Source: Anaerosomatales bacterium
Lineage (GTDB): Bacteria; Actinomycetota; Coriobacteriia; Anaerosomatales; Anaerosomataceae
Reading direction: 5' to 3'
NCBI GenBank assembly: GCA_030019445.1
Contig: JASEEU010000007.1
Location: 1-64,000 of the forward strand
Length of the DNA stretch: 64,000 bases
A model generated the notes under the pieces. The model ran no database searches, had not been told where the DNA came from, and saw only the letters and a program-made list of their open reading frames with translations. Made by a program: the position numbers and the translations under genes. Positions 26,097 to 55,000 of the stretch are shown here, piece by piece. Positions within the stretch are counted from its first letter, which is position 1, and every line of letters begins with the position of its first letter.

Positions 26097-26201
26097 TGCG
26101 TGTTCGGCCGGCTTTCGCGCGTGCCTGATCGGCACAAGCAAGCCGCAGTGACGACCCGACGGGGTAGCGACATTCACGACGCTGGGGAGTGGGTGCTGGT
26201 C

Positions 26202-29200: not shown

Positions 29201-30632
29201 GATAGCCTCCGGCGACCTGGCCTGCCTCTCCTGCCATCCCGACTCGCCGCATAACCAGCGCCAGAAGTGGGAGTTCAACCCCAATCGACAGTCGGTGCAC
29301 AGGACGAGCGCCGAGCTGCCCGGCATGCGCTCGAGCTTCGTGGTGAACGGCACCACCTATTCATGGACGCTGCCCTCCGCGAGCACGTTCCTCAAGAGCG
29401 GCTGGAGCACCGACAGCATGATGGGCTGCGACAGCTGTCACACGTACACCGGAGCCGAGGGGCCGCACGGGGCGACGATGAAGGTGAACATCGACCCCGC
29501 CTACCCCAATCCGTTCAAGGTGACGACCGGTTCGCAGTCGTTCACGGCGCAGCTGTCGCCCAATTCGCCCACGGGGATGAGCATGACCGAGAAGGGCAGC
29601 AGCCCTGCGGGCATCATCTGCGAGAAGTGCCACGACCTCCGCGGAAGCTCGTGGAGCAATGTCGTGCACAAGGAGCATGACGACCGGGGGATCGAAGGCG
29701 GCTACTGCAACCAGTGCCACGTGGGCATACCGCACGGCTGGGGCCGTCCGCGCCTCATCGGCTACACGAGCGACCCCACTGCGTATGCGACCTGGGCCGG
29801 GACAGGCAGGGACGGAGGCGGCGTCACGCGGATCTCGCTCAAGAGCTACTCGCCGTCGAACTGGCAGAAGTCAGACTGCGGTGCGGGCTGCTCAAGCGGG
29901 CGTCATCCTCTGAGCGGCAGCTCGTGGCCGTTCGTGGACGGGGGTACGACCCCGCCGCCCTCACCGACGACGGGTGTCGTCACCGGGCGGGTGACCGACG
30001 CCTCGACAGGTGCCGGCGTGACGGGAGCCACGGTCACCGTCGGAGGAACGACGGCCACCACGAGTGCCGACGGAACGTACAGCATCGTGGATCTGCCGCA
30101 GGGCTCGTACACGATGAGCGTCTCGGCAAGCGGCTACACCACGTGGACGGGTTCGGTGAGCGTCACCGCTGGCTCGACCACTACGAGGGATGTCGCGCTG
30201 ACGCCGGTCACCACGCCTCAGCCGGGCGGGAACCTGGCCCTCGGCAAGCGCTTCAGTGCGAGCGACACAGAGAGCTGGTCGTACTCGCCTGACCGCGCCG
30301 GTGACGGCGATCTCGCCACCTACTGGTGGTCCGATGACCACGGCGATGACGATGACACCGAGCGGTTGTGGGTGGATCTGGAAACGACCTATCGAGTGTC
30401 GAAGGTCGAGATCGCGTGGTGCGGCTCGCTGTGGGCGCGTGACTTCCGGATCCAAGTCTCCCGGGATGGCAGGAACTGGAGTGAGGTCTACCGGACAGAC
30501 CGCGGCGAGCAGGGCACGTCGGTCGTGACCTTCTCGGCACGTGACGCGCGCTACGTACGCGTCGAGTGTCGCAGGACCGGAACCGGACGTGACAACGGGT
30601 ACGGCATCGCGGAGTTCAGGGTGTTCGAGTAG
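26202..30632 (+). CDS. Giant secreted multiheme cytochrome c (about 43 haems) with C-terminal discoidin-like domain
   Basis: 1,476 residues from the ATG at 26202, the start that gives a normal signal peptide (MRKTLLLIVVIGVLAVAATG, ending near AYA-AVP). By my count there are 37 CXXCH, one CX3CH and five CX4CH haem motifs between residues 37 and about 1170, often as two-haem modules (C-N2-CH, about 15 residues, C-N2-CH, 5-9 residues, His). A carboxypeptidase-regulatory-like beta domain follows (about 1253-1335), then an F5/8 type C (discoidin) domain (about 1342-1476). Probably an extracellular electron conduit that attaches to carbohydrate or another surface. No LPXTG or lipobox is present. 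Confidence 0.9.
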   Translation: MRKTLLLIVVIGVLAVAATGIAYAAVPEAPYDTNAECLECHDVALDGAAISKVDFSNTVDLSRCWACHYKANHLKPSSLDCMSCHPNFPRTAGQYYSDTNTPYGWFSSGSSPYTDAATLHRIHVNGDWVVNYFPSCAGACHGRASCSACHGPDSAVSHGDHTAGAYPAVTYAQSTGSSYAASATTCVNAACHSLAAASSSTFVPTCSSCHAEKTDAHGYDTVDHVADDGVTEGIACSSCHALDLAMEHDKPTSSSAGTGCVTCHPTPRDSMDAWDQSCATGGCHTATSSAPMHAATDTAHAVVSTGEVCLGCHDGTDLGSVHVGAATDTGATSCLVCHTAAGAPASNDCTVCHFTFEEHYGDERHQSSWTLDGCVAGGCHTTRDLMEEHTAWRPDFACATCHDNASDPRYAAAIEAGDTACGACHDVSEGDSHRTAHWAQPPLVDGAGLAGYGYYDGSVAAVKTTDCAMCHASNLVDEHMGVSNSYVTRLPRYDSTGQPLDCATCHGSTDLAVVGAIASGISACETCHPVHGPIGAAHGSDFAGDPAQCTACHSSRLDVEHEGVTAVMPSGTTLNGCAVCHSYTEGAFGAAVQTAIDVTNDTSCVACHGTYHDDAGASHTATNTASLGCAGCHGDTAATSLDVTSLHADVLDPGPCTVCHENEPRVSDLATKTAECASCHAAEGSDYHRTMTTAHTFSAMDASCVGAGCHAADTLPEAHAPYLARYPQYADTCALCHRNEDAARIDWTTATADCATCHEVHGDIATIHTAPASQECVDCHETGDVRQLHGTSPEASCGYCHVAGKVLPASADCVNCHQDHTPVDPGHYPTAAHDAVNESGCEQCHYKDMKAEHFKPTVAVTCVTCHEIAVDAFSAPWDRTCTACHPTKHGEKSAKHVSSSTGCGGSGCHDIADAESIHSALSGSGCSACHIGPDQPATTTECAVCHESATPGHHEEHNAAGANPNGCSGCHFMYLDDEHIKLGYTCDVCHASTDTAVQGAIASGDLACLSCHPDSPHNQRQKWEFNPNRQSVHRTSAELPGMRSSFVVNGTTYSWTLPSASTFLKSGWSTDSMMGCDSCHTYTGAEGPHGATMKVNIDPAYPNPFKVTTGSQSFTAQLSPNSPTGMSMTEKGSSPAGIICEKCHDLRGSSWSNVVHKEHDDRGIEGGYCNQCHVGIPHGWGRPRLIGYTSDPTAYATWAGTGRDGGGVTRISLKSYSPSNWQKSDCGAGCSSGRHPLSGSSWPFVDGGTTPPPSPTTGVVTGRVTDASTGAGVTGATVTVGGTTATTSADGTYSIVDLPQGSYTMSVSASGYTTWTGSVSVTAGSTTTRDVALTPVTTPQPGGNLALGKRFSASDTESWSYSPDRAGDGDLATYWWSDDHGDDDDTERLWVDLETTYRVSKVEIAWCGSLWARDFRIQVSRDGRNWSEVYRTDRGEQGTSVVTFSARDARYVRVECRRTGTGRDNGYGIAEFRVFE

Positions 30633-30893: not shown

Positions 30894-30943
30894 GCCGGCG
30901 GTCCGAGGGGCCGCTGGGAACGTAGTTGGGGGTGGTGCCGGCC

Positions 30944-32029
30944 ATGCGCAAGATACTCTTCCTCGCGGCCGTGAGCCTCGTGCTCACGCTCGCCGTCGCA
31001 GGCGTAGCCTACGGCGTGATCCCGGAGGCTCCGTACGACACAAACGAGGACTGCCTCGCCTGTCACGACGTGGCTGCCGATGTGGCCGCTGCATTCTCGG
31101 TGGACTTCACCAGCAGCGTGGATCTGGATCGCTGCTGGGCGTGCCACTATCAGTCGAACCACTTCAAGCCGCTCTGGGGGTATCCAGTGGAACTCTATCC
31201 GTTGGGATGCCGCTCGTGCCACTACAACTTCCCGAGCGAGGCAGGCCGATACTTCTCGGAGATCTCGACTCCATACGGCTGGTTCACCACCGCGAGCTCA
31301 CCGTACACGGACGCCTCCGAGCTCCACTCGATTCACGTCAACGGGGACTGGGTGGCCGAGCCCGAGTATTACGCCTTCTGTGCTGCTCGGTGTCACGGCA
31401 AGGCGGCATGCTCGGCGTGTCACGGTCCAGATGAAGGGGTCGGGCACGGCGAGCATACCGGTGGCGTCTATCCTGCCGTCACCTACACCCAATCGATCGG
31501 AGCGGGCGTCGTCAGCACCGCGGTGACGTGCGTGAACTCGGCCTGCCACAGTCTTGGTGCCGCGAGTTCGGACGCCTTCGTCCCCGATTGCGGAGCGTGC
31601 CACCCTGGGCATGAGGATGTCGATTCCCTGCACGTGAGCTCTTCGAGCCAAGAGTGCGTCGACTGCCACGAGACGGCCGATGTTCGGGAGCTGCACGCCT
31701 CAAGTCCGGCGGCGTCGTGCGATCGCTGCCACACCGGCGGAACGCTGCCGGCGAGCGTCGAGTGTGCGGCCTGTCATGGTGGGCTTTCACCGATCGATCC
31801 CAACCACTACCCATCGGACGCCCACCTTGCATCAGCATCAGCCGGCTGCCGGTGTCACTCGAGGGACCTCTACACCGAGCATCTCAAGTTCGGAGTGGGG
31901 TGCGTGCAGTGCCATGAGAGCTCTGTCGACACGTTCGCGACCGCGTGGGACAAGACCTGCGATGCGTGCCACCCGGTCAAGCACGGTGCGACGGGCACCT
32001 GGTCCGGAGGCGGCGGGCGCCGCTGGTGA
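30944..32029 (+). CDS. Secreted multiheme cytochrome c (12 haem motifs), shortened paralogue of the 43-haem protein
   Basis: 361 residues with signal peptide (MRKILFLAAVSLVLTLAVAG, ending near AYG-VIP). Ten CXXCH, one CX3CH and one CX4CH motif, plus a CRCH that aligns with a CEQCH of the larger protein and so may have lost haem binding. Residues 1-215 align with 1-215 of the 43-haem protein, and 215-348 align with its residues 755-890, so about 540 middle residues and everything after 890 are missing. It ends in a Gly-rich tail without surface domains. Same promoter and leader type, hence probably the same signal. Confidence 0.9.
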   Translation: MRKILFLAAVSLVLTLAVAGVAYGVIPEAPYDTNEDCLACHDVAADVAAAFSVDFTSSVDLDRCWACHYQSNHFKPLWGYPVELYPLGCRSCHYNFPSEAGRYFSEISTPYGWFTTASSPYTDASELHSIHVNGDWVAEPEYYAFCAARCHGKAACSACHGPDEGVGHGEHTGGVYPAVTYTQSIGAGVVSTAVTCVNSACHSLGAASSDAFVPDCGACHPGHEDVDSLHVSSSSQECVDCHETADVRELHASSPAASCDRCHTGGTLPASVECAACHGGLSPIDPNHYPSDAHLASASAGCRCHSRDLYTEHLKFGVGCVQCHESSVDTFATAWDKTCDACHPVKHGATGTWSGGGGRRW

Positions 32030-40294: not shown

Positions 40295-41836
40295 ATGACT
40301 GACACGGTACGGATCTTCGATACGACGCTGCGCGACGGCGAGCAGTCGCCGGGCGCGAGCATGAACACCGCCGAGAAGCTGGACATCGCCCGCCAGCTCG
40401 TGCGGCTCGGCGTGGACGTGATCGAGGCGGGCTTCCCGATCTCGAGCCCCGGCGATTTCGAGAGCGTGAGGCGGGTCGGCGAGGAGGTCGGCGACGCGGC
40501 GATCGTCTGCGCGCTGACCCGCGCCGTGCCCAAGGACATCGAGGTCGCGGCGGAGGCGCTCGAGGGCATCGCCCGCCCGCGGATCCACACGGGCATCGGC
40601 GTCTCGGACAACCACCTCCGGCACAAGTTCAAGATCTCGCGGGAAGAGGCGCTCGAGCGCGCCGAGAAGGCCGTCCGGCTGGCGCGCGCCCACACCGACG
40701 ACGTCGAGTTCTACGCCGAGGACGCCGGTCGCGCGGATCCCGCGTTCCTGTACCGCATGCTCGAAGTGGCGATCGCCGCGGGAGCGACGGTCGTGAACAT
40801 CCCGGACACGACGGGCTACGCCTACCCAGAGGTCTTCGGCGCGCTCGTCGCCGGCGTGTGCGAGAACGTCGCCGGCATCGAAGACGTGACGATCTCCGTG
40901 CACTGTCACAACGACCTCGGCATGGCGACCGCCAACTCGCTCGCCGCGGTGAAGGCGGGGGCTCGACAGGTCGAGTGCACCATCAACGGCATCGGGGAGC
41001 GGGCTGGCAACACCGCCCTTGAAGAAGTCGTCATGGCGCTTCGGCAGCGTCCCGACGTGTTCGGCGTGGACACCCGCATCAATACCCGCGAGATCGTCCG
41101 CGCGTCGCGTCTGGTCTCGAGCATCACCGGCATCCTCGTGCAGCCCAACAAGTCGATCGTGGGCGCCAACGCATTCGCGCACTCCTCGGGCATCCATCAG
41201 GACGGCGTGCTCAAGGAGCGCAGCACGTACGAGATCATCGACCCCGCCGAGGTGGGCGCGGGCGGGTCGAGCATCGTGCTGACCGCGCGCTCGGGACGTC
41301 ATGCCCTGCGCCATCGGCTCGAAGACCTCGGCTACGAACTGCCGGACGATGAGTTCGAGCGCGTCTACGACGCCTTCCTCGACGTCGCCGACAAGAAGAA
41401 GGAGGTCTACGACGAGGACCTCGAAGCGATCGTCGGCGAGAGCGAGCGCACCGTCGATGAGGTCTACCACCTCGCGCAGGTGCACGTGAGCTGCGGTGAT
41501 CCCGGCATCCCCACGGCGACGGTCGAACTGGTGTCGCGTGAAGGCGAGCACCTCATCGACTCCAGTCACGGCAACGGACCGGTGGATGCGGTGTACAACG
41601 CCATCAACCGCATCGTCGCCGTGCCCAACGACCTCACCGAGTTCTCGGTGCAGTCGGTCACGCGCGGCATCGACGCCATGGGCGAGGTCACCATACGGGT
41701 GCGTTCCGAGGACGGCCGCGTGTTCACCGGCCGAGGCGCGCACCCCGACATCATCGTGGCGTCCGCGAAGGCGTACACGAACGCGCTCAACCGCCTGCTC
41801 GTGAGCCAGAAGAAAGCCGACATCGAGGAGTTGTGA
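40295..41836 (+). CDS. leuA: 2-isopropylmalate synthase
   Basis: 513 residues. HMGL-like TIM barrel with [19 protein letters not shown] at the start (metal-binding Asp), [19 protein letters not shown] (His ligands, near 205) and [19 protein letters not shown], then the C-terminal regulatory LeuA dimer domain (about 385-505) for leucine feedback. It condenses acetyl-CoA with ketoisovalerate. ATG after TAAGGAG. The related gene at 53426 is cimA, which carries the citramalate-type motifs. Confidence 0.95.
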
Positions 41837-41837
41837 C

Positions 41838-43106
41838 ATGCCGCGATCGATGACCATCACCGAGAAGATCCTCGCGGCCCATGCGGGGTTGGCCGAGGTC
41901 GAGCCCGGACAGCTGATCGAGTGCGATCTCGACATCGTGCTCGCCAACGACGTGACGGCGCCTATCGCCATCCGCGAGTTCCGGCGGATCGGCCAGCCGA
42001 GGGTCTGGGATCCTGAGCGCATCGCGCTCGTGCCCGACCACTACACGCCAAACAAGGACATCAAGTCGGCCGAGCAGGCCAAGATGGTGCGTGACTTCGC
42101 TCGAGAGCAGGGCGTGACGCACTACTACGAGATCGGGTGCATGGGCGTCGAGCACGCGTTGCTGCCCGAGCAGGGCGTCGTCGGTCCGGGCGATGTCATC
42201 ATCGGCGCCGACAGCCACACCTGCACCTACGGTGCGCTCGGCGCGTTCGCCACGGGCGTGGGGTCGACCGACGCCGCCGTCGGCATGGCCACCGGCCAGG
42301 CGTGGTTCAAGGTGCCCGCCTCGCTCAAGTTCGTCGTCGACGGCGAGCTCGGGTCGTGGGTGAGCGCAAAAGACGTCATCCTGCACATCATCGGGATGAT
42401 CGGTGTGGACGGTGCGCTCTACCAGGCGATGGAGTTCACCGGGAGCACCATCTCGGCGCTCGATATGGACGGCCGCATGACCATCTGCAACATGGCCATC
42501 GAAGCGGGCGGCAAGAGCGGCATCATCGCTCCCGACGACGTGACTCGCGCCTACGTGGAGGGACGCGCCGAGCGCCCCTGGACCGAGCACGCCTCGGATG
42601 AGGACGCCTCCTACGCCGCAGTGTACGAGATCGACGCCTCGGCCATCAGGCCAACCGTCTCCTTCCCGCACCTGCCGAGCAACACGAGAGCCGCCGAGGA
42701 CAGCCGGGACGTGCGCGTGGACCAGGTCGTCATCGGTTCGTGCACCAACGGCCGCCTCGAGGACATGCGCGTCGCGGCGAGCGTGCTGAAGGGCCGTACG
42801 GTCCACCGGGATGTGCGGCTCATCGTGATACCAGCCACCCAGAAGGTCTACCGCGACATGATGCACGAGGGGCTCACGGACATCTTCCTCGATGCGGGCG
42901 CGGCGGTCTCCACCCCCACGTGTGGTCCGTGCCTCGGCGGGCACATGGGCATCCTCGCGGCGGGTGAGCGCGCCGTGGCGACGACCAACCGCAACTTCGT
43001 CGGTCGCATGGGCGATCCCACGAGCGAGGTCTACCTGTCGAGCCCGGCGGTTGCCGCGGCGACAGCCGTCATGGGGCACATCGCGGTGCCCGAGGACCTG
43101 GAGTAG
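41838..43106 (+). CDS. leuC: 3-isopropylmalate dehydratase, large subunit
   Basis: 422 residues, one base after leuA. Aconitase-family motifs: [40 protein letters not shown], the 4Fe-4S cysteines in [15 protein letters not shown] (near 300) and [14 protein letters not shown] (near 360). The short HACN type found in archaea and many anaerobes. Its small subunit leuD is not next to it but 7.7 kb away at 50836, beyond a cytochrome block. Confidence 0.95.
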
Positions 43107-43113
43107 GGTCGGT

Positions 43114-44883
43114 CTACAGGCCCAGGATGCGCTGCAGCTGGATACGCTCGGCGTCACCGATGGGGTAGTCGAGAGCGAGGCCCGCGTAGCGGCGCGCCTC
43201 GGGGACCATGCCCAACCGCTCGGCCTCCAGCGCGGTGAGGAAGTACCAGATGCCGCTGGCCGGGTCAGCTTCCAGCCCTTGGTTCGCTGTCTGCACGAAC
43301 GCTGCGAAGGTGTCGTCGCCATGAACCGCGGAGCGCATTTGCTGGTACGCGAGCGTGCGAAGCGCGAGATCGACGTGCCAGCGGCGCGCCGCGGCGTAGC
43401 GGTCGACGAGGGCGGCCGCCTCGTCTCCCGGACCGACGGAGTCCAGGGTGGCGGCGAGCGCTCGCGTGGCGATGTCCGGGTCATGGCCGGTGAGCGCGCC
43501 CTCGAGCAGGGCATCGACGTCAGCGCCGGGTAGTGCGCGGAACTCCGCGGGCATGACGACAGCGGCGGCCAGGGCGAAGGCGGCGCACGCGACCGCAAGA
43601 GCCGTGACCGCGACCCTGTGCGCTTCGCCGGATGCGCGTCGCATCGATACGCTGCGCTCTCTGTCCAGGCCGAGCAGCGTTCCCACGATGGCCGCAGCGC
43701 CGATGGCCGCGGGTACCGACACCCATGCGAACAGCGTCGAGAACGCGAGCGCCACGATGCCTGCGATGAGAACCAACATGAACATCGGGCGGCCGCTTGC
43801 GTTCCACGTCGTGACGAGGCCACGGAAGACGGTCGCCGCCGTGAGGATGCCGAGCGCCAACGCCACGATCCCACCTCCAAGGAGGAGGGCGAGCAGCACG
43901 TTGTGCGGATCGTACGCTCCGTAGTAGGAGAGCGCGCCGCCCGGCTGCAAGGACCAGTCGATCCATGCCGAGAACTGCTCGACGCCGCACCCGACGAACG
44001 GTGACTCTCCGAGCCGAACGACCGCAGAGCGCCAGATGAGCGCGCGATCCGTGCCCACGGAGTTCAGCGCGTCGAACGCAGAGGAACCCAGGGCGCCCCC
44101 CGCGACGGCGAGACCGAGGCCCGTGCCACCAGTGGCGATCGCCGTGAGCACCGCCGCTACACCGCGCTCGGTCTTTGATGACCCACGATCCACAGCGAGC
44201 ATGAGTCCCGCCGCGAGGCCGATCGCGAGACCCACCACCCCTGCCCTCGAATCCGTGACGACGATCCCGCCGAGCGACAGCGCAGCGCACGCGATGGCGA
44301 CGAGGCGTTCGCTGCGACCGGACGCGAACATCGCCCAGGCGACCGAGGCGGATCCCCCGACGATGAACGTCTGCGCGGCGCTGAGCGAGTTCTCCAGGAC
44401 CCCCGCCGCCGACCCCCAGAGACGTCCGGCTGAGATCGGTGCCCCAAGCGCTTCCAGCACCGCGAGGAGAGCAAGGATCCCGAATCCGCCGGCCGCGGTG
44501 ACGATCACGGCACGCAGGGAGCGCTTGGATGCCGCGAGCGCTGATGCCGTCGCGACGGCGAGCGCTGCGACCCACAGCGTGGTTCCGTTGTGCTGTCCCG
44601 CGAGTCCAAGGAACGATGTCCAGGGGTCGTCAGCGAACGCCGAGGTCACGCAGAGCCACGCGGCGAGGCTGATACCGAAGTAGAGCCACGCGCGACACCC
44701 GGCGGCTCCCGTAGCGTCTCCCGAGCGAACGCCCCATGCGCTCGCACCGGCGGCGACGATGAGCGCCAGGGCCAGGAGCAGGCCGCTCGCCGCGTACGCA
44801 GGTGCGAGCAACGGAACCACCACGGACAGTCCCACGAGGACCACCGCCGGCCCTCTGTAGGCGACCTGGACGGTACGAGACAT
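43114..44883 (-). CDS. O-antigen ligase/Wzy-like polytopic membrane protein with C-terminal soluble domain
   Basis: 589 residues. About twelve membrane segments to residue 450, with the Wzy_C-type region carrying a conserved Arg (SVGTDRALIWRSAVVRLGES), FVGCGVEQFSAWID and YDPHNVLLALLLGGG (DPHN replaces the usual xxHN). The C-terminal 130 residues are helical and TPR-like (DVDALLEGALTGHDPDIATRA, WYFLTALEAERLG). Such proteins polymerise or transfer glycans. Next to secreted cytochromes it may glycosylate them or build surface polymer; inference only. Divergent from the TPR gene. Confidence 0.75.
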   Translation of the reverse strand: MSRTVQVAYRGPAVVLVGLSVVVPLLAPAYAASGLLLALALIVAAGASAWGVRSGDATGAAGCRAWLYFGISLAAWLCVTSAFADDPWTSFLGLAGQHNGTTLWVAALAVATASALAASKRSLRAVIVTAAGGFGILALLAVLEALGAPISAGRLWGSAAGVLENSLSAAQTFIVGGSASVAWAMFASGRSERLVAIACAALSLGGIVVTDSRAGVVGLAIGLAAGLMLAVDRGSSKTERGVAAVLTAIATGGTGLGLAVAGGALGSSAFDALNSVGTDRALIWRSAVVRLGESPFVGCGVEQFSAWIDWSLQPGGALSYYGAYDPHNVLLALLLGGGIVALALGILTAATVFRGLVTTWNASGRPMFMLVLIAGIVALAFSTLFAWVSVPAAIGAAAIVGTLLGLDRERSVSMRRASGEAHRVAVTALAVACAAFALAAAVVMPAEFRALPGADVDALLEGALTGHDPDIATRALAATLDSVGPGDEAAALVDRYAAARRWHVDLALRTLAYQQMRSAVHGDDTFAAFVQTANQGLEADPASGIWYFLTALEAERLGMVPEARRYAGLALDYPIGDAERIQLQRILGL

Positions 44884-45018
44884 GTGGTGTACCTTTCATC
44901 ATCGTGCAGCGGGTTCCCGATCTAGTCTACGCGGATGTGAATCGGAGCACGAGGTGGTATGTCCCTTGCTCCCACACATTCACTCACACATCGACACACC
45001 TTCCAAGGAGAGCGGCTG

Positions 45019-45777
45019 ATGTCCGAGCGAGCCTATGGCAGCGCTGACGACGCCACGTACGTCGTCGTCGAAGAGCGCGATCCGGTCGTGACCTACCTGC
45101 GATTCGGTATCGCGCTCGTCATCATCACTATCCTCGTCTCTGCGATATATGTTCTGGTGCAAGGGGTCTTCAGCGACCGCGCTCCTCAAACGGCTCTCGA
45201 ATCGAGCATCGCGATCGCCCGCTCAGCGACGGAACAGCTTCCGGCCAACGGTCAGGCATGGGGAGACTACATCCGGCTGCTCGTCGTCGCCGAGGAGTAT
45301 GGCAAGGCGCAGGAAGCTATCGCCGATGCGCGCGAGAACGTGGCGGGCGCTTCGCTCGCATGGGTCAACAACGCGGAGCTCCGCTATCTGATCGCCACCG
45401 GAAAGAACGAGGAGGCGGTGGAGCTCGCTCCTCGATTCGTTCAGCAAGACATCGACTGGCGCGCGGAAGTGGCGAACGAGCTCGCGCAGCAAGGCGTCAG
45501 GGCGACTGCGGAGACCCTGCCCTCGGACAGTACGGTCGAGCTGTGGATGCTCAAGGCGACGGCCGAGGGCGGCGTGGGTGACTGGGAGAGCGCGATCGAG
45601 TCTCTGACGTTCGGTCTCAAGTACCAGCCGAATTCCGCGGACCTCCTTGCGCTTCGCGGAAACGCATACCTTGCGGTCGGGGATACCGAGCAGGCTCGCA
45701 AGGACTTCGAGGCGGCATTGAAGTACGTTCCTGACTACGCCCCCGCACTTCGGGGACTGGAAGAGGTGCAGCGGTAG
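45019..45777 (+). CDS. Membrane-anchored TPR-repeat protein
   Basis: 252 residues from the ATG at 45019, preceded by CCAAGGAGAG. Short cytoplasmic start, a membrane span at about residues 32-54, then an external helical domain with TPR-like repeats, clearest at the end (SADLLALRGNAYLAVGDTEQ, ARKDFEAALKYVPDYAPALRG). Likely a scaffold. Its stop abuts the ATG of the NHL protein, so both act together, next to the hexahaem cytochrome gene. Confidence 0.75.
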   Translation: MSERAYGSADDATYVVVEERDPVVTYLRFGIALVIITILVSAIYVLVQGVFSDRAPQTALESSIAIARSATEQLPANGQAWGDYIRLLVVAEEYGKAQEAIADARENVAGASLAWVNNAELRYLIATGKNEEAVELAPRFVQQDIDWRAEVANELAQQGVRATAETLPSDSTVELWMLKATAEGGVGDWESAIESLTFGLKYQPNSADLLALRGNAYLAVGDTEQARKDFEAALKYVPDYAPALRGLEEVQR

Positions 45778-47040
45778 ATGCGCGAGAGCGAGTTCGAGAC
45801 ACGGAGTGCGAGCGCCGTCGAAGGCGATGTTCAGTATGTGGAGGAGCGTGTCGTCGAGTATGTGACGAACCGGCGCCAGCGCGGTCTTCTCATCATCGCC
45901 CTCGTCGCCCTCTTCCTGTTGCTGATCGGCCTCATCGTCGGCGTCACCATGCTGAGCTCGCCGGTCGGGGCGCCCACCGAAGGGGACCTGCCGGAGGATA
46001 TCGAGTGGGTGCGCTCCATCTACGGCTGGGGCACCGCTCCGGAGCAGGCGTTGGCAAGTCCGGTGGACGCTGCGGTAGCACCTGATGGAACCATCTGGGT
46101 GGTGAGCGGCAAGACGACGATCGTCGCCTTCGAGCCTGACGGGAGCCTTGAGCGCCTCGTCGAGCTCCCCTTCGGTGAAGGCGAGGGTCAGGTCAGCGCT
46201 CTCGAGGGGCTCGACGTCGCCGATGACGGGTCCGTGTATGTGTGTGACTACGGCAACAACAAAGTGATCGTGCTCTCCCCGGAGGGCGAACTCACGAACG
46301 AGTGGAGCGTTCAGCTTCCCAATGAGATCGCGGTGCAGGGCGACCGCGTGGCCCTCGCCGCGGCGTTCGGCGTCGGCGTCTTCACCACCGAGGGTGAGCC
46401 GATCTCGACATGGGGGTCACGCGGCGCCGGACTCGAGAACTTCGACCTTCCGCACGGTATCGCGTTTGGTGAGAACGGCGAGGTGTTCGTGTCCGACACG
46501 CACAACGAGCGTGTCAAGGCGTACACGCAGGATGGCCGCCTGTTGTGGGTCAGCCGGACTTCAGGCGTTCCGGCGAGCGAGGCGTCAGCGGAGGCTACGG
46601 GCAGCGCATACCAGCTTCCCGCAGGCATGACCTTTGATGCGGCCGGTCGCCTCCTCGTGGTGGATCCGTTCGAGTTCGCCATCTTCGCGCTTGACCCGGA
46701 GACCGGCGACATCACCGATCGCTACGGCGACTTCGGGTCTGCCGACGGTCTCTTCGCGTATCCGACGGGCGTCTCCTATGACGACGCTCGTGACTGGTTC
46801 GTCGTAGCCGACACGGCGAACAATCGTGTCCAGATCATCCGTCTCGCCGGCAGCGGAGGCAACGCCGTGGTCGCCGCTATCGCGACCGCATTCGACCGCC
46901 CGATCTGGCTGTTCCTGCTGCCGATCCTTCTGTTGCTCGCGGCCCTGGCCGTGGCGGTCGCACGGCGCAAGCGGCAGCGTCTGGAAGCGCGTCGCATCGC
47001 GGGCTCCGGGGTCAAGAACCGGCCCGGGAATGCCGATTAA
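45778..47040 (+). CDS. Membrane-anchored NHL-repeat beta-propeller protein
   Basis: 420 residues. Cytoplasmic N-terminus, membrane span at about 37-59, an external propeller (about 75-370) with NHL blades such as LEGLDVADDGSVYVCDYGNN, LPHGIAFGENGEVFVSDTHN and FAYPTGVSYDDARDWFVVAD, then a second span (about 376-396) and a basic tail. No catalytic motif. Propellers of this kind often accompany extracellular cytochromes; a role in export, folding or docking of the next gene product is plausible. Confidence 0.8.
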   Translation: MRESEFETRSASAVEGDVQYVEERVVEYVTNRRQRGLLIIALVALFLLLIGLIVGVTMLSSPVGAPTEGDLPEDIEWVRSIYGWGTAPEQALASPVDAAVAPDGTIWVVSGKTTIVAFEPDGSLERLVELPFGEGEGQVSALEGLDVADDGSVYVCDYGNNKVIVLSPEGELTNEWSVQLPNEIAVQGDRVALAAAFGVGVFTTEGEPISTWGSRGAGLENFDLPHGIAFGENGEVFVSDTHNERVKAYTQDGRLLWVSRTSGVPASEASAEATGSAYQLPAGMTFDAAGRLLVVDPFEFAIFALDPETGDITDRYGDFGSADGLFAYPTGVSYDDARDWFVVADTANNRVQIIRLAGSGGNAVVAAIATAFDRPIWLFLLPILLLLAALAVAVARRKRQRLEARRIAGSGVKNRPGNAD

Positions 47041-47192
47041 GAATCATTGATATCCGTTGAATGTGGTTTGCGATTCCGTGCTCAGCATGGCATGATGATG
47101 ACACATGTGAACGGTGTGCCGGATGGCCGCCGCAGACAGGGTTGAACGGAGCTGAGCTCCGACGACGATTCCGTCATGGAAAGGAGGTGCGA

Positions 47193-48389
47193 ATGACTAT
47201 GACAGGACGATTCACTGCAACTAGCAAGGAGTCTCATACTATGAAGAAGACGCTCGTCATCGTGGCGCTCGCCACGCTGATGGTGTTCGCGTTCAGCGGT
47301 GTCGCCATGGCCAAGATCACCAACAACTATCACGAGTGGGATGCGGCTGGCGGCTTCGGTGGCGCGAACGCGACGGTTCCGACCCCCCACAAGGGCTACA
47401 CCGAGGCGACCGTGAAGTGCAACGTGTGCCACGCGGTTCACAACGCCCCGATCGCGGGAACCGGTTGGGATGCCAACAAAGATGGCGATTTCCTCGATGC
47501 AGGCGAATGGGAGGCTGGCGACACCGACACCGAGATGCTGCTCCGCTCGACGGTGGCGAACGCATGCAACTACTGCCACATCGAGACCAGCATCGGTGGC
47601 ACGCAGCTGTACGGCGGCGACCCGGTCCTTTACACGCGCACGGGCAACCCGTGGGAGGACTTCAACCACGGTGGTCCGAGCGCCTCGTGCACCGGCTGCC
47701 ACGCCGTCCACGGCGCCAACACCTATGGCGGTCCCACCACGCTCGCCAACAAGATCCTCAAGCAGGGCACCATCCAGGATGAGGTCATCCTCGAGGGTGT
47801 TCCCGCAGTCGATCCTCTGAACGACGCGCTCTTCCCGAGCGCAGCGGATGCCTACGCGGGCACCAACGTCCGCGCTGACGCCGCTGGCGATCTCCGGAAC
47901 GCACAGCTGACCGCGTTCTGCTCGCAGTGCCACAGCAACTACAGCTACGCTTCCGAGCAGACGGTCAACGTCGATGGCGACTATGTCTACGGCGATTCCG
48001 GGTACGTGTACCCCACGGGTTCGAGCTATCGCTACAAGACCCACCCCCTCAAGGCTGCGGCCACGGGTGCGGTCGGCGATCGCTTCGTCGCAGCGGGCGC
48101 CACGATCACGTCTGACACCCCCGTCGCCTTCGCCACGTCGGCGACGTGCCGCGATTGCCACGACGCTGGCAACGTGGACGAGGGTGCGGTCACCACGTAC
48201 AACAGCTTCCCGCACTACACGCGCGGCTCGTTCAACTTCATGACGGCCGGTGCGTCTGTGGGCGATGCGCAGGATCATGGTGATCCGCTGGATGCTACCG
48301 ATCCTCCGTATATGTTCCAGGTGGATGGACACTGCCTGAAGTGCCACGTGAACGCTGCGGGCACCGCCGGCATCAACATCACCTACTAG
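47193..48389 (+). CDS. Secreted hexahaem cytochrome c
   Basis: 398 residues from the ATG at 47193, which has the very strong AAAGGAGGTGCGA; a second ATG at 47241, also with AAGGAG, would start exactly at the signal peptide (MKKTLVIVALATLMVFAFSG, cleavage near AMA-K). Six CXXCH motifs: CNVCH, CNYCH, CTGCH, CSQCH, CRDCH and CLKCH, widely spaced, with extra histidines for second ligands. Tyr, Gly, Asn and Thr-rich mature sequence. Size and haem number resemble filament-forming OmcS-type cytochromes, but haem number alone proves nothing. Confidence 0.88.
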   Translation: MTMTGRFTATSKESHTMKKTLVIVALATLMVFAFSGVAMAKITNNYHEWDAAGGFGGANATVPTPHKGYTEATVKCNVCHAVHNAPIAGTGWDANKDGDFLDAGEWEAGDTDTEMLLRSTVANACNYCHIETSIGGTQLYGGDPVLYTRTGNPWEDFNHGGPSASCTGCHAVHGANTYGGPTTLANKILKQGTIQDEVILEGVPAVDPLNDALFPSAADAYAGTNVRADAAGDLRNAQLTAFCSQCHSNYSYASEQTVNVDGDYVYGDSGYVYPTGSSYRYKTHPLKAAATGAVGDRFVAAGATITSDTPVAFATSATCRDCHDAGNVDEGAVTTYNSFPHYTRGSFNFMTAGASVGDAQDHGDPLDATDPPYMFQVDGHCLKCHVNAAGTAGINITY

Positions 48390-48421
48390 TCACCTGACTG
48401 GTAGCACCGCTTTGCGGGAAC

Positions 48422-48451
48422 GGGGCGGCTCTCCATAACGGGAGCCGCCCC
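48422..48451 (+). terminator. Rho-independent terminator after the hexahaem gene
   Basis: Stem GGGGCGGCTC/GAGCCGCCCC (ten pairs) extended by CC/GG, short loop ATAAC, followed by TCTTCCTG. It separates the hexahaem gene from the two larger membrane cytochrome genes. Confidence 0.75.
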
Positions 48452-48532
48452 TCTTCCTGCACGTGAGGGCTGTGCCGTTGGCCCTCCGCTTGCTACGCTT
48501 TCCCCTCGAACGAGTGGTCGGCAGGAGTCCTT

Positions 48533-49498
48533 GTGCGGATCATCGAGCATGTCCGAGAGCATAGACGCGCGACTGTGGTCATCGCCGGAGCGGTGCTCGT
48601 GCTGTCGACGGCCCTCTTGGGCGCCATCACCTCATCGACGGCTGTCTGCGCTCCGTGTCATGCCGCACAGGTGAACGCCCTGCACCAGAGCCCGCATGCG
48701 AAGTCCGGGTGCTACTCATGCCATCTGGAAGACGGAGCGTGGAGCCTTCCGGGTGCCAAGTCCGCGGAGTGGTTCCGCATGTACCCCTCGGCGCTGCTCG
48801 GCGACGACGTGATCGTTCCGCAACCGACCGACCGAGGCTCGTGCCTCGAGTGCCATTTGACCATTCTTGATGCGCCCGTGGAGCGGTACGGGCTGCGTGT
48901 GGACCACGCGACCTGCGCAACGGGCGACACATGCGATGCCTGCCACACGGGCGATGCGCATCCGGGGGTAGGGCTTGCGCGAGGTCCTGTCATGGAGGAC
49001 TGCACGGCCTGCCACCTCGAGAATGGCGCGACGATCGCGTGCGATGCGTGCCACGCGGGGCGAACCGAACGGGATCGGCTTGCCCGTGGGCCGTGGCAGG
49101 TCACACACGGCCCAGAGTGGCGCAGCACGCACGGCATGGGCAACATCGACTCCTGCGCCACGTGTCACCCGCAGGAGTTCTGCGGCAAGTGCCATGGCGT
49201 GCCGCTACCACACCCCGCCGAGTTCGGTCGCACGCATGGCGCCTCAGCCACAGAGGATCCGACCGGATGCGCTACCTGCCACAAGAGCACGCGGTTCTGC
49301 GAGGCGTGCCATGGGATGCACATGCCGCATCCCGCCGGCTACCTCGCGAACCATAGCGCGGATGCTGCCGGTATCGATGACGAGCGCTGCGCTCGATGTC
49401 ACGTTCGCTCTGAGTGCGAGGATTGTCATTCCCGCCACGTCCACCCAGGTGGGGCCTCCGGTGTGCCCTGGCTCGAAGGCGGAGTGGATGGCCGGTGA
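48533..49498 (+). CDS. Membrane-anchored 12-haem cytochrome c
   Basis: 321 residues, GTG start. An N-terminal hydrophobic span (about 14-36) without clear cleavage site suggests an anchor. Twelve CXXCH motifs by count: CAPCH, CYSCH, CLECH, CDACH, CTACH, CDACH, CATCH, CGKCH, CATCH, CEACH, CARCH and CEDCH. The start, with a span then CAPCHAAQVNALHQSPHAKSG, resembles NapC/NirT-type quinol-oxidising cytochromes, so it may take electrons from menaquinol. Its stop overlaps the next start (GTGA), implying a stoichiometric partner. Confidence 0.88.
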   Translation: MRIIEHVREHRRATVVIAGAVLVLSTALLGAITSSTAVCAPCHAAQVNALHQSPHAKSGCYSCHLEDGAWSLPGAKSAEWFRMYPSALLGDDVIVPQPTDRGSCLECHLTILDAPVERYGLRVDHATCATGDTCDACHTGDAHPGVGLARGPVMEDCTACHLENGATIACDACHAGRTERDRLARGPWQVTHGPEWRSTHGMGNIDSCATCHPQEFCGKCHGVPLPHPAEFGRTHGASATEDPTGCATCHKSTRFCEACHGMHMPHPAGYLANHSADAAGIDDERCARCHVRSECEDCHSRHVHPGGASGVPWLEGGVDGR

Positions 49499-50760
49499 GC
49501 GAGCTTCTCGATCGCATCGGACAGGTCGGCTTGGATGGCGTGATCGAGGCGGTTCGGCGTGTGATCGCCGAGCCGACCGCCGACCTCACACTGACCTTCA
49601 TCTTCCTAGCTGCCGTCACGGTCGCCCTGCTGCTCCTTGTCGTGGGTCTGCTGCTCGTCCTCACGCCGAGCCGCAAGCGTGTCGTGAAGATCCGGCGACG
49701 TCCGCTGCCCGGCGGGCCTGCGCCTCAGTCGGAGGCGGCCGCCACTGAGGAGCTCACCGTCATCGAAGGGTGGGAGGACGAGAGCGAGCGCGAGCCGCTC
49801 GCGATGCCGGAGCTGTCCCAGCAGCCCGAAGCGGACGTCGCTGGAGAACCCCGGCGTTGGCTTCCCGCGTGGGCGTTGGGGTCTGCGACCGTGCCGCTGC
49901 TCATCGTGCTGGCAGGCTTCGCGGGGTACGTCGCCACGGGTACGGATGCGTACTGCGCGACGCTGTGCCACTCGACGTCGGAAGCAGTGATCGCGGCTGC
50001 GGAGATCGACCACGCGTCATGCGTTTCGTGCCATGAGCAGCCCGGACTGTGGGGAGTCGTCGGCAACGTGAGCAGCAGGACGCGCATGGTAGTCCGCGAG
50101 CTGCAGGGCGATGCCTCAGACCCGCGTGCCACGCTTCATCCGGCGGGGTGTCTTGGCTGCCATGGAGACGTTCTGGACGAGGTGACCGAGAGCCCGGCCG
50201 GCATCCGGATGTCGCACCGCGAGCCCGTCTCAGCGGGGATGTCGTGCACCGAGTGTCACCGCACGGTCGGTCACACCGAGCGGCGTTCCGAGGCCACGAT
50301 GTCCCAGTGCCTGCCATGTCATGACGCGGAGCAGGCATCGGCCGATTGCGAGACGTGCCACGTGCTCGATCCGTTGACGCAAGGGATCGCCAGCGAGGAG
50401 TCGACCAAGACGCTCGGGAGCGGGCGCGTGGTGTACCCGACGGTTCCCATCGACCGACGGGAATGCAGCGGCTGTCACGACGAGGAGAGCGAGTGCGACA
50501 CGTGTCACGGGCTCCGGATGCCGCACAGCGAGGAGTTCATCGAGGGTGACCACGCGAGCGCGGCGGCGTTCGAGCGCAAGGAGCTCTGCTACCGCTGTCA
50601 CGAGGTCTGGGAGTGCAACTCGTGCCATCGCAACTTCGATGCGCATGGCCTCAACTGGAAGTACGAGCACCGCGCCTCGGCCTGGGACGCGGGGTGCACG
50701 TGCCATCAGTTCCGCAGCGACCGGGACTATCCGATCTGCTATCGGTGTCACGACCGCTGA
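49495..50760 (+). CDS. Membrane multiheme cytochrome c (11 motifs plus one atypical)
   Basis: 421 residues, GTG start overlapping the upstream stop by four bases. Two membrane spans (about 31-57 and 127-148) separated by an acidic cytoplasmic stretch rich in Glu and Pro. After the second span come CATLCH (CX3CH), ten CXXCH motifs, and a CTCH near residue 402 that lacks one residue of the motif. The start of the haem region again resembles NapC/NirT. It probably forms a quinol-to-periplasm electron relay with the 12-haem protein. Confidence 0.87.
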   Translation: MSELLDRIGQVGLDGVIEAVRRVIAEPTADLTLTFIFLAAVTVALLLLVVGLLLVLTPSRKRVVKIRRRPLPGGPAPQSEAAATEELTVIEGWEDESEREPLAMPELSQQPEADVAGEPRRWLPAWALGSATVPLLIVLAGFAGYVATGTDAYCATLCHSTSEAVIAAAEIDHASCVSCHEQPGLWGVVGNVSSRTRMVVRELQGDASDPRATLHPAGCLGCHGDVLDEVTESPAGIRMSHREPVSAGMSCTECHRTVGHTERRSEATMSQCLPCHDAEQASADCETCHVLDPLTQGIASEESTKTLGSGRVVYPTVPIDRRECSGCHDEESECDTCHGLRMPHSEEFIEGDHASAAAFERKELCYRCHEVWECNSCHRNFDAHGLNWKYEHRASAWDAGCTCHQFRSDRDYPICYRCHDR

Positions 50761-50835
50761 CGGCGGTGCGTCCATCCGCTCCTCGTGGTACCCTGCTTGT
50801 CACACTTCAGACGGCAGGGCGCCGAGGAGGGCACC

Positions 50836-51336
50836 ATGAAGTTTCACGGCACCGCGCACAAGTACGGTCGTGACGTCGACACCGATGTGATCATCCCCGC
50901 GCGCTACCTGAACACGAGCGTGCCCGAGGAGCTCGCGAAGCACTGCATGGAGGACCTCGACCCGCGCTTCATCGAGAAGGTCGAGTTCGGCGACGTGCTG
51001 GTGGCCGAGGAGAACTTCGGCTGTGGCTCCAGCCGCGAGCATGCCCCCATCGCCATCAAGGCGGCGGGCGTGAGCGTGGTCATCGCGAAGTCCTTCGCGC
51101 GCATCTTCTATCGCAATGCGATCAACACCGGGCTTCCGATCATGGAGTCACCGGAGGCCGTCGATGGCATCAGCGACGGCGATGAGGTCGAAGTGGACGC
51201 CGACACCGGCGTCATCGTCAACGTCACGAGCGGGGAGACGTACCAGGCGCAGCCGTTCCCGCCCTTCGTGAAGGACATCATCGAGCGGGGTGGCCTCGTT
51301 GAGTCCGTCAAGGCGAAGGGCGCGCGCCGTGGCTGA
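50836..51336 (+). CDS. leuD: 3-isopropylmalate dehydratase, small subunit
   Basis: 166 residues; the ATG at 50836 follows GAGGAGGG. Swivel-domain motifs [19 protein letters not shown] and [20 protein letters not shown] (near 60) are complete. The short archaeal-type LeuD matches the HACN-type LeuC encoded at 41838. It overlaps leuB by eight bases. Confidence 0.96.
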
Positions 51337-52450
51337 CGTCAAGCGTATCTGCCTGCTCCCCGGCGACGGCATCGGACCTGAGATCGCCGCCGAGGCGGTC
51401 AAGCTCCTGGAGGCCATCGGCGAGCTGGAGGGCGTGACGTTCGAGCTCACCGAGGCGCTGCTCGGCGGCGTCGCGATCGACGAGACCGGCTCCCCGCTGC
51501 CCGACGAGACGCTCGCGGAGGCGCGCGATGCCGACGCCGTGCTGCTGGCTGCCATCGGCGGTCCCCGGTGGGATACCACCGATCCTGCGCGACCGCGGCC
51601 GGAGCAGGGGCTTCTCGGCATCCGGAAGGCGCTCGGCCTCTATGCGAACCTGCGGCCGGTCAAGCTCTTCGACGCGCTCACCGACGCCTCCAGCCTCAAG
51701 CGGGAGGCCCTCGAGGGCGTGGACATGCTCATCGTGCGCGAACTGACGGGCGGCCTGTACTTCGGCGAGAGCGCGCGCGAGGCCGATGTCGACGGCGCGT
51801 CGGCAGACGGCTCGCCCGGCATGCTCGCGTACGACACCATGGTCTACACCGAGGCCGAGATCGAGCGCATCGCGCGCGTCGCGTTCGAGGCCGCGCGCAA
51901 GCGGCGCGGTAAGGTGCACTCGGTCGACAAGGCGAACGTGCTCGAGAGCAGCCGGCTGTGGCGCGAGGTCGTCCACCGGCTGCACGCGGCCGAGTACGGA
52001 GACGTCGAGCTTCTCGACCAGCTCGTCGACAACACCGCGATGCAGCTCGTGCGGATGCCCGCGCAGTTCGACGTGATCGTGACCGAGAACATGTTCGGTG
52101 ACATCCTCTCGGACGAGGCGTCGATGCTCACCGGCTCGCTCGGCATGCTGGCGAGCGCTTCTCTCGGCGATGGCACCGCGCTCTACGAGCCGAGTCACGG
52201 CAGCGCACCGGACATCGCCGGGCAGGGCATCGCCAACCCGCTTGCGATGCTCCTCTCGGTGGAGCTCATGCTGCGCTACAGCTTCGGGATGGACGCGGCG
52301 GCGGATCGGCTGGCCGCCGCGATCGAGGTCACGCTGGCCGAGGGCTGGCGCACGCGCGACATCGCGGATGCGTGGACGCTGCCGCAGCGGACGGTGGGGA
52401 CGAGCGCCATGGGCGATCTCGTCGTCGAGCGTTTGCGCGCGCCGAGGTAG
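51329..52450 (+). CDS. leuB: 3-isopropylmalate dehydrogenase
   Basis: 373 residues from the GTG at 51329 inside the end of leu[21 protein letters not shown] at the start, the LeuB-type loop [20 protein letters not shown] (near 95), [32 protein letters not shown] and [14 protein letters not shown] for NAD binding. The ELTGG and GLLGIRK signatures separate it from the isocitrate-type paralogue at 23588. Confidence 0.96.
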
Positions 52451-52501
52451 AATCACGGATACGCACCGCGTGCGCGGTGTCAGGCTGGAAGGGGAGGCAT
52501 C

Positions 52502-53419
52502 ATGGCGGCACTGCCGAAGGTGGACAAGATCTGGATGGACGGCGCGCTCGTCGACTGGGACGCCGCGCAGGTCCACGTACTCACCCACGCGCTCCACTAC
52601 GGCACCGCCGTGTTCGAGGGCATCCGCTGCTACGAGACCGGCGACGGCCCGGCCGTCTTCCGCCTGACCGAGCACATGGAGCGGTTCGAGCGCTCGGCGG
52701 CGATGCTGCTCATGGACCTGGGCTACACGGTCGAGCAGACCGTCGAAGCGGTCAAGGAGACCATCCGCGCGAACAAGCTCATGAGCTGCTACATCCGGCC
52801 GATCGCCTTCCGTGGCTACGGCGTGATGGGTCTTGATCCCATCCCAGCGCCGGTGAACGTCTCCATCGCGGTCTGGCCGTGGGGCACGTACCTCGGCGAG
52901 GACGCGCTCAAGCATGGGGTCGAGGTCGGCGTCTCAAGCTGGCGCCAGCGCACCGTCAACGCACACCCGCCCGCGATCAAGGCCTCGGCCAACTACCTGA
53001 ACTCCGCGCTCGCCCGCGTGGAGGCCAACCGCCACGGCTACAACGAGGCGATCATGCTCAACGAGGACGGCAAGGTCTGCGAGGGCACCGGCGAGAACAT
53101 CTTCGTGGTGAAGAAGGGCGTGCTGATGACGCCGCCCATCTCGGACGGCGTGCTCGAGGGCATCACGCGCGACTCGGTGATGACCATCGCCCGCGACCAG
53201 GGAATCGAGGTGCAGGAGCGCTCGCTCGTGCGCACCGACCTCTACACCGCCGACGAGATGTTCATGACCGGGTCGGCCGCCGAGGTCGTGCCGGTGCGCG
53301 CGGTCGATGGCCGCGTCATCGGGGACCCGGGGTCGGTCACGGTCGCGGTCCAGAAGGCGTTCTTCGACGCCGTCAGCGGGAAGAACCCGGCGTACTCGAG
53401 CTGGCTGGAGCACGTGTAG
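52502..53419 (+). CDS. ilvE: Branched-chain amino acid aminotransferase
   Basis: 305 residues. Class IV PLP fold: IWMDGALVDWDAAQVHVLTH, HYGTAVFEGIRCYET, the catalytic Lys in PAIKASANYLNSALA (near 160), EGTGENIFVVKKGVL and MTGSAAEVVPV. Final step for valine, leucine and isoleucine. ATG after GGAAGGGGAGG; a short seven-base inverted repeat CACCGCG/CGCGGTG lies in the gap after leuB. Confidence 0.95.
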   Translation: MAALPKVDKIWMDGALVDWDAAQVHVLTHALHYGTAVFEGIRCYETGDGPAVFRLTEHMERFERSAAMLLMDLGYTVEQTVEAVKETIRANKLMSCYIRPIAFRGYGVMGLDPIPAPVNVSIAVWPWGTYLGEDALKHGVEVGVSSWRQRTVNAHPPAIKASANYLNSALARVEANRHGYNEAIMLNEDGKVCEGTGENIFVVKKGVLMTPPISDGVLEGITRDSVMTIARDQGIEVQERSLVRTDLYTADEMFMTGSAAEVVPVRAVDGRVIGDPGSVTVAVQKAFFDAVSGKNPAYSSWLEHV

Positions 53420-53425
53420 GCGCGC

Positions 53426-55000
53426 ATGGTCACCCTCTACGACACCACGCTCAGGGACGGCACCCAGCGCGAGGGGCTCTCGCTCTCGGTGGAGGACAAG
53501 CTGCGCGTGGCGATGCGCCTCGACGACCTCGGCGTGCACTACATCGAGGGCGGTTTCCCCGGCTCCAACCCCAAGGACATCGAGTTCTTCGAGCGTGCGC
53601 GCACCCTGCGGCTTGCCAACGCGACGATCACCGCCTTCGGCGCCACGCGCCGCAAGGACGTGTCCGCCGAGGAGGACGAGGGCCTGCGGGCGCTGCTCGA
53701 CACGGGCTGCGAGGCGCTCTGCATCTTCGGCAAGGCGTGGCCGGTGCATGTCACCGAGACGCTGCGCACCACCCTCGACGAGAACCTCGCGATGGTGCGC
53801 GAGAGCGTCGCGTACCTCAAGGCCGCCGGTCGCACGGTGTTCTTCGACGCCGAGCACTTCTTCGACGGCTACGCTGACGATCCGGCCTACGCGACCGCGG
53901 TCTGCGTGGCCGCCGCGGAGGCGGGAGCGGATGCGGTCGTGCTCTGCGATACCAACGGCGGGACGCTCCCGCACGTGGTCGCGCGGGTGGTGGCCGAGAT
54001 GGCCGAGCGCGTGAGCGTGCCGCTCGGCATCCACGCGCACAACGACGGCGGCTGTGCGGTGGGCAACTCGCTCATCGCGGTCGCGTCGGGGTGCACGCAC
54101 GTCCAGGGCACCATGAACGGCTACGGCGAGCGTGCCGGCAACGCGGACCTCACGAGCATCATCCCCGCGCTCGTGCTCAAGATGGACGACGACTGCGTCT
54201 CGCATGACCAGCTCAGGCTGCTGACCGAGGTCTCGCACTTCGTCGCCGAGACCGCGAACCTCTCGCCCTTCCCACACCAGCCGTACGTGGGCATGAGCGC
54301 CTTCGCGCACAAGGGCGGGGTACACGCGAGCGCGGCCGCGCGTCTCGCCGCAGCCTATGAGCACATCGATCCCGCGGCGGTCGGCAACCTGGCGCGCGTC
54401 GTCATCAGCGAGCTCGCCGGTCGCGCGAGCCTCACGATGAAGGCCGCCGAGATGGGCATCGACCTCGCCGGCGACGCCGAGACCGTCTCGGCGGTGCTCG
54501 ACAGCATCAAGGAGCTCGAGCATCGCGGGTACTCCTTCGAGGCCGCGGACGCCTCGCTCGAGATCCTGCTGCGCAAGCGCCTCGGCGGGTACACGCCGTA
54601 CTTCAGGCTCGAGAGCTTCCGCTGCATCATGGAGAAGCGCGAGGACGGCCGCGTGATGACCGAGGCCACCATCAAGCTGCACGTCGAGGGTCACCGCTTC
54701 ATCGCCACCGCCGAGGGGAACGGCCCCGTGAACGCGCTCGACAAGGCGCTCCGGATCGCGATCGGCCGCTACTACCCGCACCTCGACGATATCGAGCTCA
54801 CGGACTTCAAGGTCCGCGTGCTGGACGAGAAGAAGGGCACCGGCGCGGTCACGCGCGTGCTCATCGAATCCGCAGACGGTGAGAAGAGCTGGGGCACCGT
54901 CGGCGTGTCCGAGAACATCATCGAGGCATCGTGGGAGGCGCTCGTCGACTCCATCGACTGGGGGCTTTCGCATCCCAGGCAGGAATCGGACCCCTCGTAG
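53426..55000 (+). CDS. cimA: (R)-citramalate synthase
   Basis: 524 residues, six bases after ilvE. HMGL-like barrel with LYDTTLRDGTQREGLSLSVE, YIEGGFPGSNPKD, LGIHAHNDGGCAVGNSLIAV and QGTMNGYGERAGNADLTS, then the LeuA-type regulatory domain (about 400-515). The TQREG and HNDGG forms and long length mark the CimA branch rather than LeuA. It condenses pyruvate and acetyl-CoA to citramalate, which LeuCD and LeuB turn into 2-ketobutyrate for isoleucine without threonine deaminase. Confidence 0.93.
   Translation: MVTLYDTTLRDGTQREGLSLSVEDKLRVAMRLDDLGVHYIEGGFPGSNPKDIEFFERARTLRLANATITAFGATRRKDVSAEEDEGLRALLDTGCEALCIFGKAWPVHVTETLRTTLDENLAMVRESVAYLKAAGRTVFFDAEHFFDGYADDPAYATAVCVAAAEAGADAVVLCDTNGGTLPHVVARVVAEMAERVSVPLGIHAHNDGGCAVGNSLIAVASGCTHVQGTMNGYGERAGNADLTSIIPALVLKMDDDCVSHDQLRLLTEVSHFVAETANLSPFPHQPYVGMSAFAHKGGVHASAAARLAAAYEHIDPAAVGNLARVVISELAGRASLTMKAAEMGIDLAGDAETVSAVLDSIKELEHRGYSFEAADASLEILLRKRLGGYTPYFRLESFRCIMEKREDGRVMTEATIKLHVEGHRFIATAEGNGPVNALDKALRIAIGRYYPHLDDIELTDFKVRVLDEKKGTGAVTRVLIESADGEKSWGTVGVSENIIEASWEALVDSIDWGLSHPRQESDPS

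Follow-up and report, generated by a model that had tools for sequence, protein, structure and literature searches.

The electron-transfer chain of the Gram-positive Thermincola, with which the present genes compare best, consists of a membrane decahaem cytochrome (ImdcA), a periplasmic decahaem cytochrome (PdcA) and a hexahaem cytochrome of the cell wall, CwcA (PMC7911101; PMC12203936). CwcA was modelled on OmcS, with which it shares 18% identity, as an OmcS-like polymer crossing the peptidoglycan; it could not be purified as a soluble protein, and the authors read it as polymer-forming (PMC7911101). In Dethiobacter alkaliphilus, NHL and TPR genes lie beside the multihaem cytochromes of Fe clusters and a role in assembly was suggested for them. 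The cytochromes were described as SmhB-, MtrA/MtoA- or CymA-like, and no conserved hexahaem wire subunit was singled out (PMC10376724). An Fe(III) reducer is among the cultured Anaerosomatales, and multihaem clusters for extracellular electron transfer are known in this order as sets of MtrA-, OmcH- and OcwA-like homologues (PMC9686372). We found no description of the conserved six-gene unit reported below, or of its CYT6 family, in the texts searched.

A conserved cytochrome module in Anaerosomatales

We analysed a stretch of 64,000 nucleotides (the window) from a genome of the Anaerosomatales (Coriobacteriia), contig JASEEU010000007.1. CXXCH-type motifs were matched 79 times in the window versus 3.2 times in shuffled sequence. 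The preliminary description had placed TPR, NHL and hexahaem genes at 45019-48389, and these coordinates were correct; the three genes lie on one strand. The features of the module are as follows.

43114-44883, minus strand: Wzy_C (O-antigen-ligase-like) membrane protein, 589 aa, a possible O-oligosaccharyltransferase; Pfam PF04932, E 9e-10; divergent from the module
45019-45777, plus strand: TPR gene, 252 aa, one N-terminal transmembrane (TM) segment followed by a TPR domain; Pfam TPR_19, E 6e-10; conserved neighbour
45778-47040, plus strand: NHL beta-propeller gene, 420 aa; Pfam NHL, E 1.8e-21; conserved neighbour
47180-47246, plus strand: two Shine-Dalgarno/start pairs in one frame, as read from the sequence
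47241-48389, plus strand: CYT6, secreted hexahaem c-type cytochrome, 382 aa, with signal peptide and six CXXCH
48422-48451, plus strand: GC-rich hairpin 3' of CYT6, a putative partial terminator or 3' stabiliser
48533-49498, plus strand: CYT12, dodecahaem cytochrome with N-terminal membrane anchor, 12 CXXCH; conserved neighbour
49495-50760, plus strand: CYT10, membrane-anchored decahaem cytochrome (two TM), 10 CXXCH and one CX3CH; conserved neighbour

The TPR and NHL genes abut with zero gap. The NHL protein has a TM segment at either end with the propeller in between (TM segments of both proteins were assigned by hydropathy), and its profile matched solved NHL propellers at E 1e-46. Pfam, TM and coordinate data thus confirmed two abutting genes for membrane-anchored proteins ahead of a secreted hexahaem cytochrome, and the divergent O-antigen-ligase-like gene was real as well. 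The four-gene filament system proposed earlier consists of real, co-occurring genes, but it missed the two membrane-anchored cytochromes with which the module continues past CYT6. CYT12 matched Cytochrome_C7 (E 1.4e-11) and, weakly and below threshold, NapC/NirT. The CYT10 gene starts inside the CYT12 stop, giving an overlap of 4 bases. Because these 12- and 10-haem cytochromes belong to the module, we consider it a conduit rather than a lone filament gene.

In its own genome, CYT6 has one full copy. CYT6 was matched at E <= 0.001 in 55 of 69 genomes of Anaerosomatales, many matches being partial, and the named public records with matches were Coriobacteriia, Anaerosomatales and unclassified Actinomycetota assemblies. 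Full-length matches within the class were concentrated in Anaerosomatales, more distant full-length relatives occurred elsewhere in the phylum, and the viral contigs and plasmids searched held no relatives. For the fetched loci, genes were predicted with a caller that had learned its codon usage from the GC-rich window; it performs poorly in the low-GC genomes of other classes, so gene absence there is not evidence.

The supposed co-occurrence of the genes was borne out: TPR and NHL genes both lay within six genes of CYT6 for 51 of 67 CYT6 genes, in 38 genomes. The other 16 comprised five near a contig end, three with TPR only and eight with neither gene. Every module had an NHL propeller, and CYT12 or CYT10 was also present in 34 of the 38 module genomes. 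The genomes average about five Wzy_C copies, and a Wzy_C-like gene lay close to the module in 18 of the 38. At a chance rate of about 4% of modules this gives P ~1e-15, and at 10% P 5e-9; both values are indicative only, since the loci were picked by CYT6 matches and related genomes are not independent. The module occurs across many families of Anaerosomatales, whether at the leu locus or elsewhere, and other classes of the phylum also have TPR-NHL-hexahaem neighbours. A conserved block of five to six neighbouring genes in this little-studied anaerobic Gram-positive group is clearly real.

Several observations concern the surroundings. The gene order at 40295-55000 is serA, leuA, leuC, cytochrome module, leuD, leuB, ilvE and cimA. 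In one homologous locus (L035, 4814-6397), a membrane protein with a spermidine-synthase domain is encoded between leuC and the module; the Geobacter spermidine synthase GSU2502 is numbered between oscC and omcT, a likeness that is maybe coincidence. On contig C17 of the same genome as the window, at about 228-262 kb, another TPR-NHL pair lies next to cytochromes of 14 and 10 haems, with a Wzy_C gene at 237.8 kb; an additional NHL gene there adjoins a gene for a 1052-aa 19-haem protein. Five CYT6 paralogues had neither TPR nor NHL nearby, and three of these had CX3CH at haem 5. Elsewhere in the window (26100-30632), a giant cytochrome of 1510 aa with 37 CXXCH combines MtrC/MtrF-like and c7 domains with C-terminal carboxypeptidase-regulatory and F5/8 type C domains, and a cytochrome with 10 CXXCH (30926-32029) follows it. 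The giant protein is likely a surface reductase.

Haem sites and expression signals of CYT6

The haem motifs of CYT6 are those of C60, C109, C150, C227, C303 and C365, and its distal-type His residues are H50, H67, H143, H157, H268 and H325. Exactly six CXnCH sites were found in every one of 68 full-length homologues, and where some subfamilies have an X3 or X4 spacer at haems 3 to 6 the site count is unchanged. Across the same 68 sequences there were exactly six further conserved His columns, complete save for one sequence at H67, while any other His column reached at most 25% conservation. These extra His residues and the haem motifs alternate strictly. From six haem sites and six alternating conserved His we therefore infer six bis-His haems. 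CYT6 ends in GINITY, and 63 of the 68 homologues have a C-terminus of the G-V-G-x-x-aromatic type (GVGxxY/F), as would be expected if it docks on a partner. A CYT6-like hexahaem domain was also seen at the C-terminus of five proteins of about 790-1250 aa, where it is used as a fusion module and mostly keeps the GVG-type end.

Structure prediction gave an unusable AF2 model of CYT6 (pLDDT 52). For a compact homologue (61 sequences) pLDDT rose to 67, with the haem-1 end below 50, and this weak model had no match in the PDB by Foldseek or VIA-align. NCBIfam held no model naming the family beyond a generic doubled-CXXCH domain.

The strong translation signals noted earlier for the hexahaem gene were confirmed as two in-frame pairs. 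The mechanical ORF begins at 47061, and the starts bearing a Shine-Dalgarno sequence lie further in: AAAGGAGGTG at 47180-47189 with ATG at 47193, and AAGGAG at 47226-47231 with ATG at 47241. Shine-Dalgarno sequences were also present upstream of CYT6 homologues. The first start, with its own Shine-Dalgarno sequence, is in frame about 16 codons ahead of the signal peptide (47193-47241), and several homologues (four loci) are likewise extended at the N-terminus by a similar length. Downstream of the stop, 31 of 44 CYT6 homologues have a GC-rich hairpin that reaches at least -22.6 kcal/mol in 40 nt, and its sequence differs between genomes. The mean z was -2.6 downstream of CYT6 versus -0.35 downstream of NHL genes, as scored from mononucleotide shuffles with some duplicate loci in the NHL control set. 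The strong hairpin together with the strong Shine-Dalgarno sites suggests that CYT6 is made in excess over CYT12 and CYT10, as for a structural subunit. A simple promoter and terminator scan found no promoter-like site and missed the CYT6 hairpin because its T run is short. No Rfam riboswitch was found upstream of CYT6; Geobacter OmcS, by contrast, has an upstream riboswitch.

Comparison with filament-forming cytochromes

Among published systems, the Thermincola chain (CwcA, Tfer_0075 or TherJR_1122; ImdcA, Tfer_0070; PdcA, Tfer_1887) is the best comparison for the module. Both hosts are Gram-positive, and both gene sets include a secreted hexahaem cytochrome, that of the wall in Thermincola, which would belong to a chain across the wall with a membrane-anchored decahaem partner on the quinol side and proposed bis-His haems. 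As in the CwcA system, membrane-anchored multihaem partners (here CYT12 and CYT10) are encoded with the secreted hexahaem protein; CwcA was compared by architecture only. However, Thermincola belongs to a different phylum, and a third cytochrome with 12 haems and the TPR, NHL and Wzy_C genes belong to the conserved unit described here.

The likeness to OmcS-type subunits put forward in the preliminary description held for haem number and size (six haems; a 382-aa precursor versus 407 aa for mature OmcS), but in sequence it stayed at motif level and no fold match accompanied it. OmcS and CYT6 share the CXXCHxxH motif of haems 1 and 3. They differ in that the OmcS host is a diderm with outer-membrane export whereas the CYT6 host is a monoderm, and in the conserved GVGxxY/F-type C-terminus of CYT6. 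In our searches phmmer with CYT6 gave no OmcS match; the OmcS sequence used was identical to that of PDB 6ef8 (407/407). The CYT6 profile matched OmcS at E 2e-5 with the haems misregistered, and the hhalign score was 47.4 versus a maximum of 45.0 in 60 CXXCH-preserving shuffles, with the register off by one haem. In PDB profile searches OmcS took 2nd and 4th place, interspersed with unrelated multihaem proteins, and other such proteins scored as well as OmcS against the CYT6 profile. Homology to the OmcS family, with an hhalign score barely above the shuffles and off-register, was thus rejected as unproven; since CXXCHxxH is common, other proteins score equally and a mediocre model gave no fold match, we do not claim membership. 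Since cytochrome polymers are considered to have evolved repeatedly (PMC9473688), lack of homology does not count against polymerisation.

An alternating His order can be selected in OmcS as in CYT6: H2, C1, H16, C2, H53/63/110, C3, H147, C4, H247/257/309, C5, H335, C6, with one His chosen from each of the two sets of three. Six c-haems that are all bis-His, the mark of the OmcS family, would likewise be present throughout the 68 CYT6 homologues, to judge from the conserved His. H67 of CYT6 is by motif only the positional counterpart of OmcS His16, which we take to be the His that reaches into the neighbouring subunit. Haem 5 of OmcS takes a His ligand from the adjacent subunit (PMC6584659). 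OmcE and AvECN also use inter-subunit His ligation (PMC12203936).

The filament cytochromes OmcE, AvECN and PcECN are secreted multihaem proteins like CYT6 but have four haems, and OmcE (7tfs) gave only a sub-threshold profile match (E 0.6). The OmcZ family, marked by eight haems, a long-spacer haem-1 motif and an adjacent protease, was rejected on all three features: CYT6 has six haems and X2-X4 spacers, and no adjacent protease was seen in the window. Shen et al. in 2025 reportedly described OscD of Geobacter as propeller-like. The idea of an accessory propeller, raised in the preliminary description, has in OscD a published parallel: this protein of the omcS-companion (osc) operon was proposed to act on nanowire morphology (PMC13194489). 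Helper genes lie beside a hexahaem cytochrome in the osc operon, as putative helper genes do in our module. PPIase and channel-like genes, which are Osc features, were not recognised by Pfam or among the ORFs of the module in the window.

Conductor, shuttle or reductase

We tentatively favour a monoderm conduit for extracellular electron transfer in which quinol-side cytochromes feed a wall conductor, CYT6, that would most likely be polymeric and assisted by TPR and NHL proteins. CYT12 and CYT10 in the cytoplasmic membrane would be supplied with electrons by the quinol pool or by one another and pass them to the secreted, presumably abundant and all-bis-His CYT6, which would conduct through the cell wall. 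CYT6 would most likely form an end-to-end polymer in which one distal His serves as haem ligand in the next subunit; the best candidate for this ligand would be H67 of the haem-1 CXXCHxxH motif. The TPR and NHL proteins, membrane-anchored and conserved beside CYT6, are most likely its assembly partners and would fold, hold or nucleate the outgoing cytochrome. The Wzy_C protein may glycosylate it. Against this reading speak the CYT6 paralogues that lack TPR and NHL neighbours, 8 of 67 genes lying away from contig ends.

In our view a polymer is the single most likely mode of CYT6, with a monomeric shuttle as a strong rival. It is quite possible that the same conduit works with a monomeric CYT6, which would shuttle electrons in the wall or periplasmic space between CYT12 and CYT10 and a surface reductase, kept in position by TPR and NHL in a stable complex and not built into a wire. 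Full ligation of the six haems by the six distal-type His is possible within one chain, TPR and NHL domains commonly form stable scaffolds, and sequence and fold searches gave no evidence of a filament family; the giant 37-CXXCH surface-type cytochrome with its F5/8 type C domain could be the terminal reductase. However, a monomer alone does not explain the conserved extreme C-terminus and the 3' hairpin, and CwcA, the closest published Gram-positive hexahaem protein, could not be maintained in solution and was read as polymer-forming (PMC7911101). Improbable in our view is that CYT6, instead of conducting, is itself the terminal reductase at the surface, with Fe(III), humics or some other acceptor as its substrate. 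It is secreted and multihaem, and the OcwA structure 6i5b was the top PDB profile match, yet this match was mainly over one two-haem stretch; moreover, the invariant partner His for all six haems leads us to expect no open substrate-binding haem.

The module sits between leuC and leuD, within the leucine operon, and leuC or leuD was in the same locus in 21 of 38 module genomes. Its position between leu genes in many genomes would fit operon hitch-hiking, with TPR and NHL unrelated to CYT6. This explanation is very improbable and largely refuted, because many genomes carry the TPR-NHL-CYT6-CYT12-CYT10 set apart from leu genes, and it is also present outside the class; chance co-location with the leu operon was rejected on the same ground. 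The favoured polymeric conduit can be extended to a glycosylated hexahaem filament through the monoderm wall, with a TPR-propeller assembly pair, in Anaerosomatales and other Actinomycetota, of an origin separate from OmcS, OmcE, OmcZ and archaeal filaments and with the GVGxxY/F-type end as a polymerisation or assembly signal. In this full form we regard it as rather unlikely.

For electron transport across the thick wall of Gram-positive cells, CwcA is the sole proposed wire subunit. The module gives a defined gene set, conserved across an order with cultured members, for direct tests of a wire, and offers a short-loop model protein, for which homologues of 272 aa or 283 aa are available, as well as named residues (H67 and the C-terminal motif). 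Cytochrome-wire assembly factors have so far come only from Geobacter; if the proposal is true, an assembly pair of TPR and NHL propeller proteins and a candidate glycan transferase would be added to the field.
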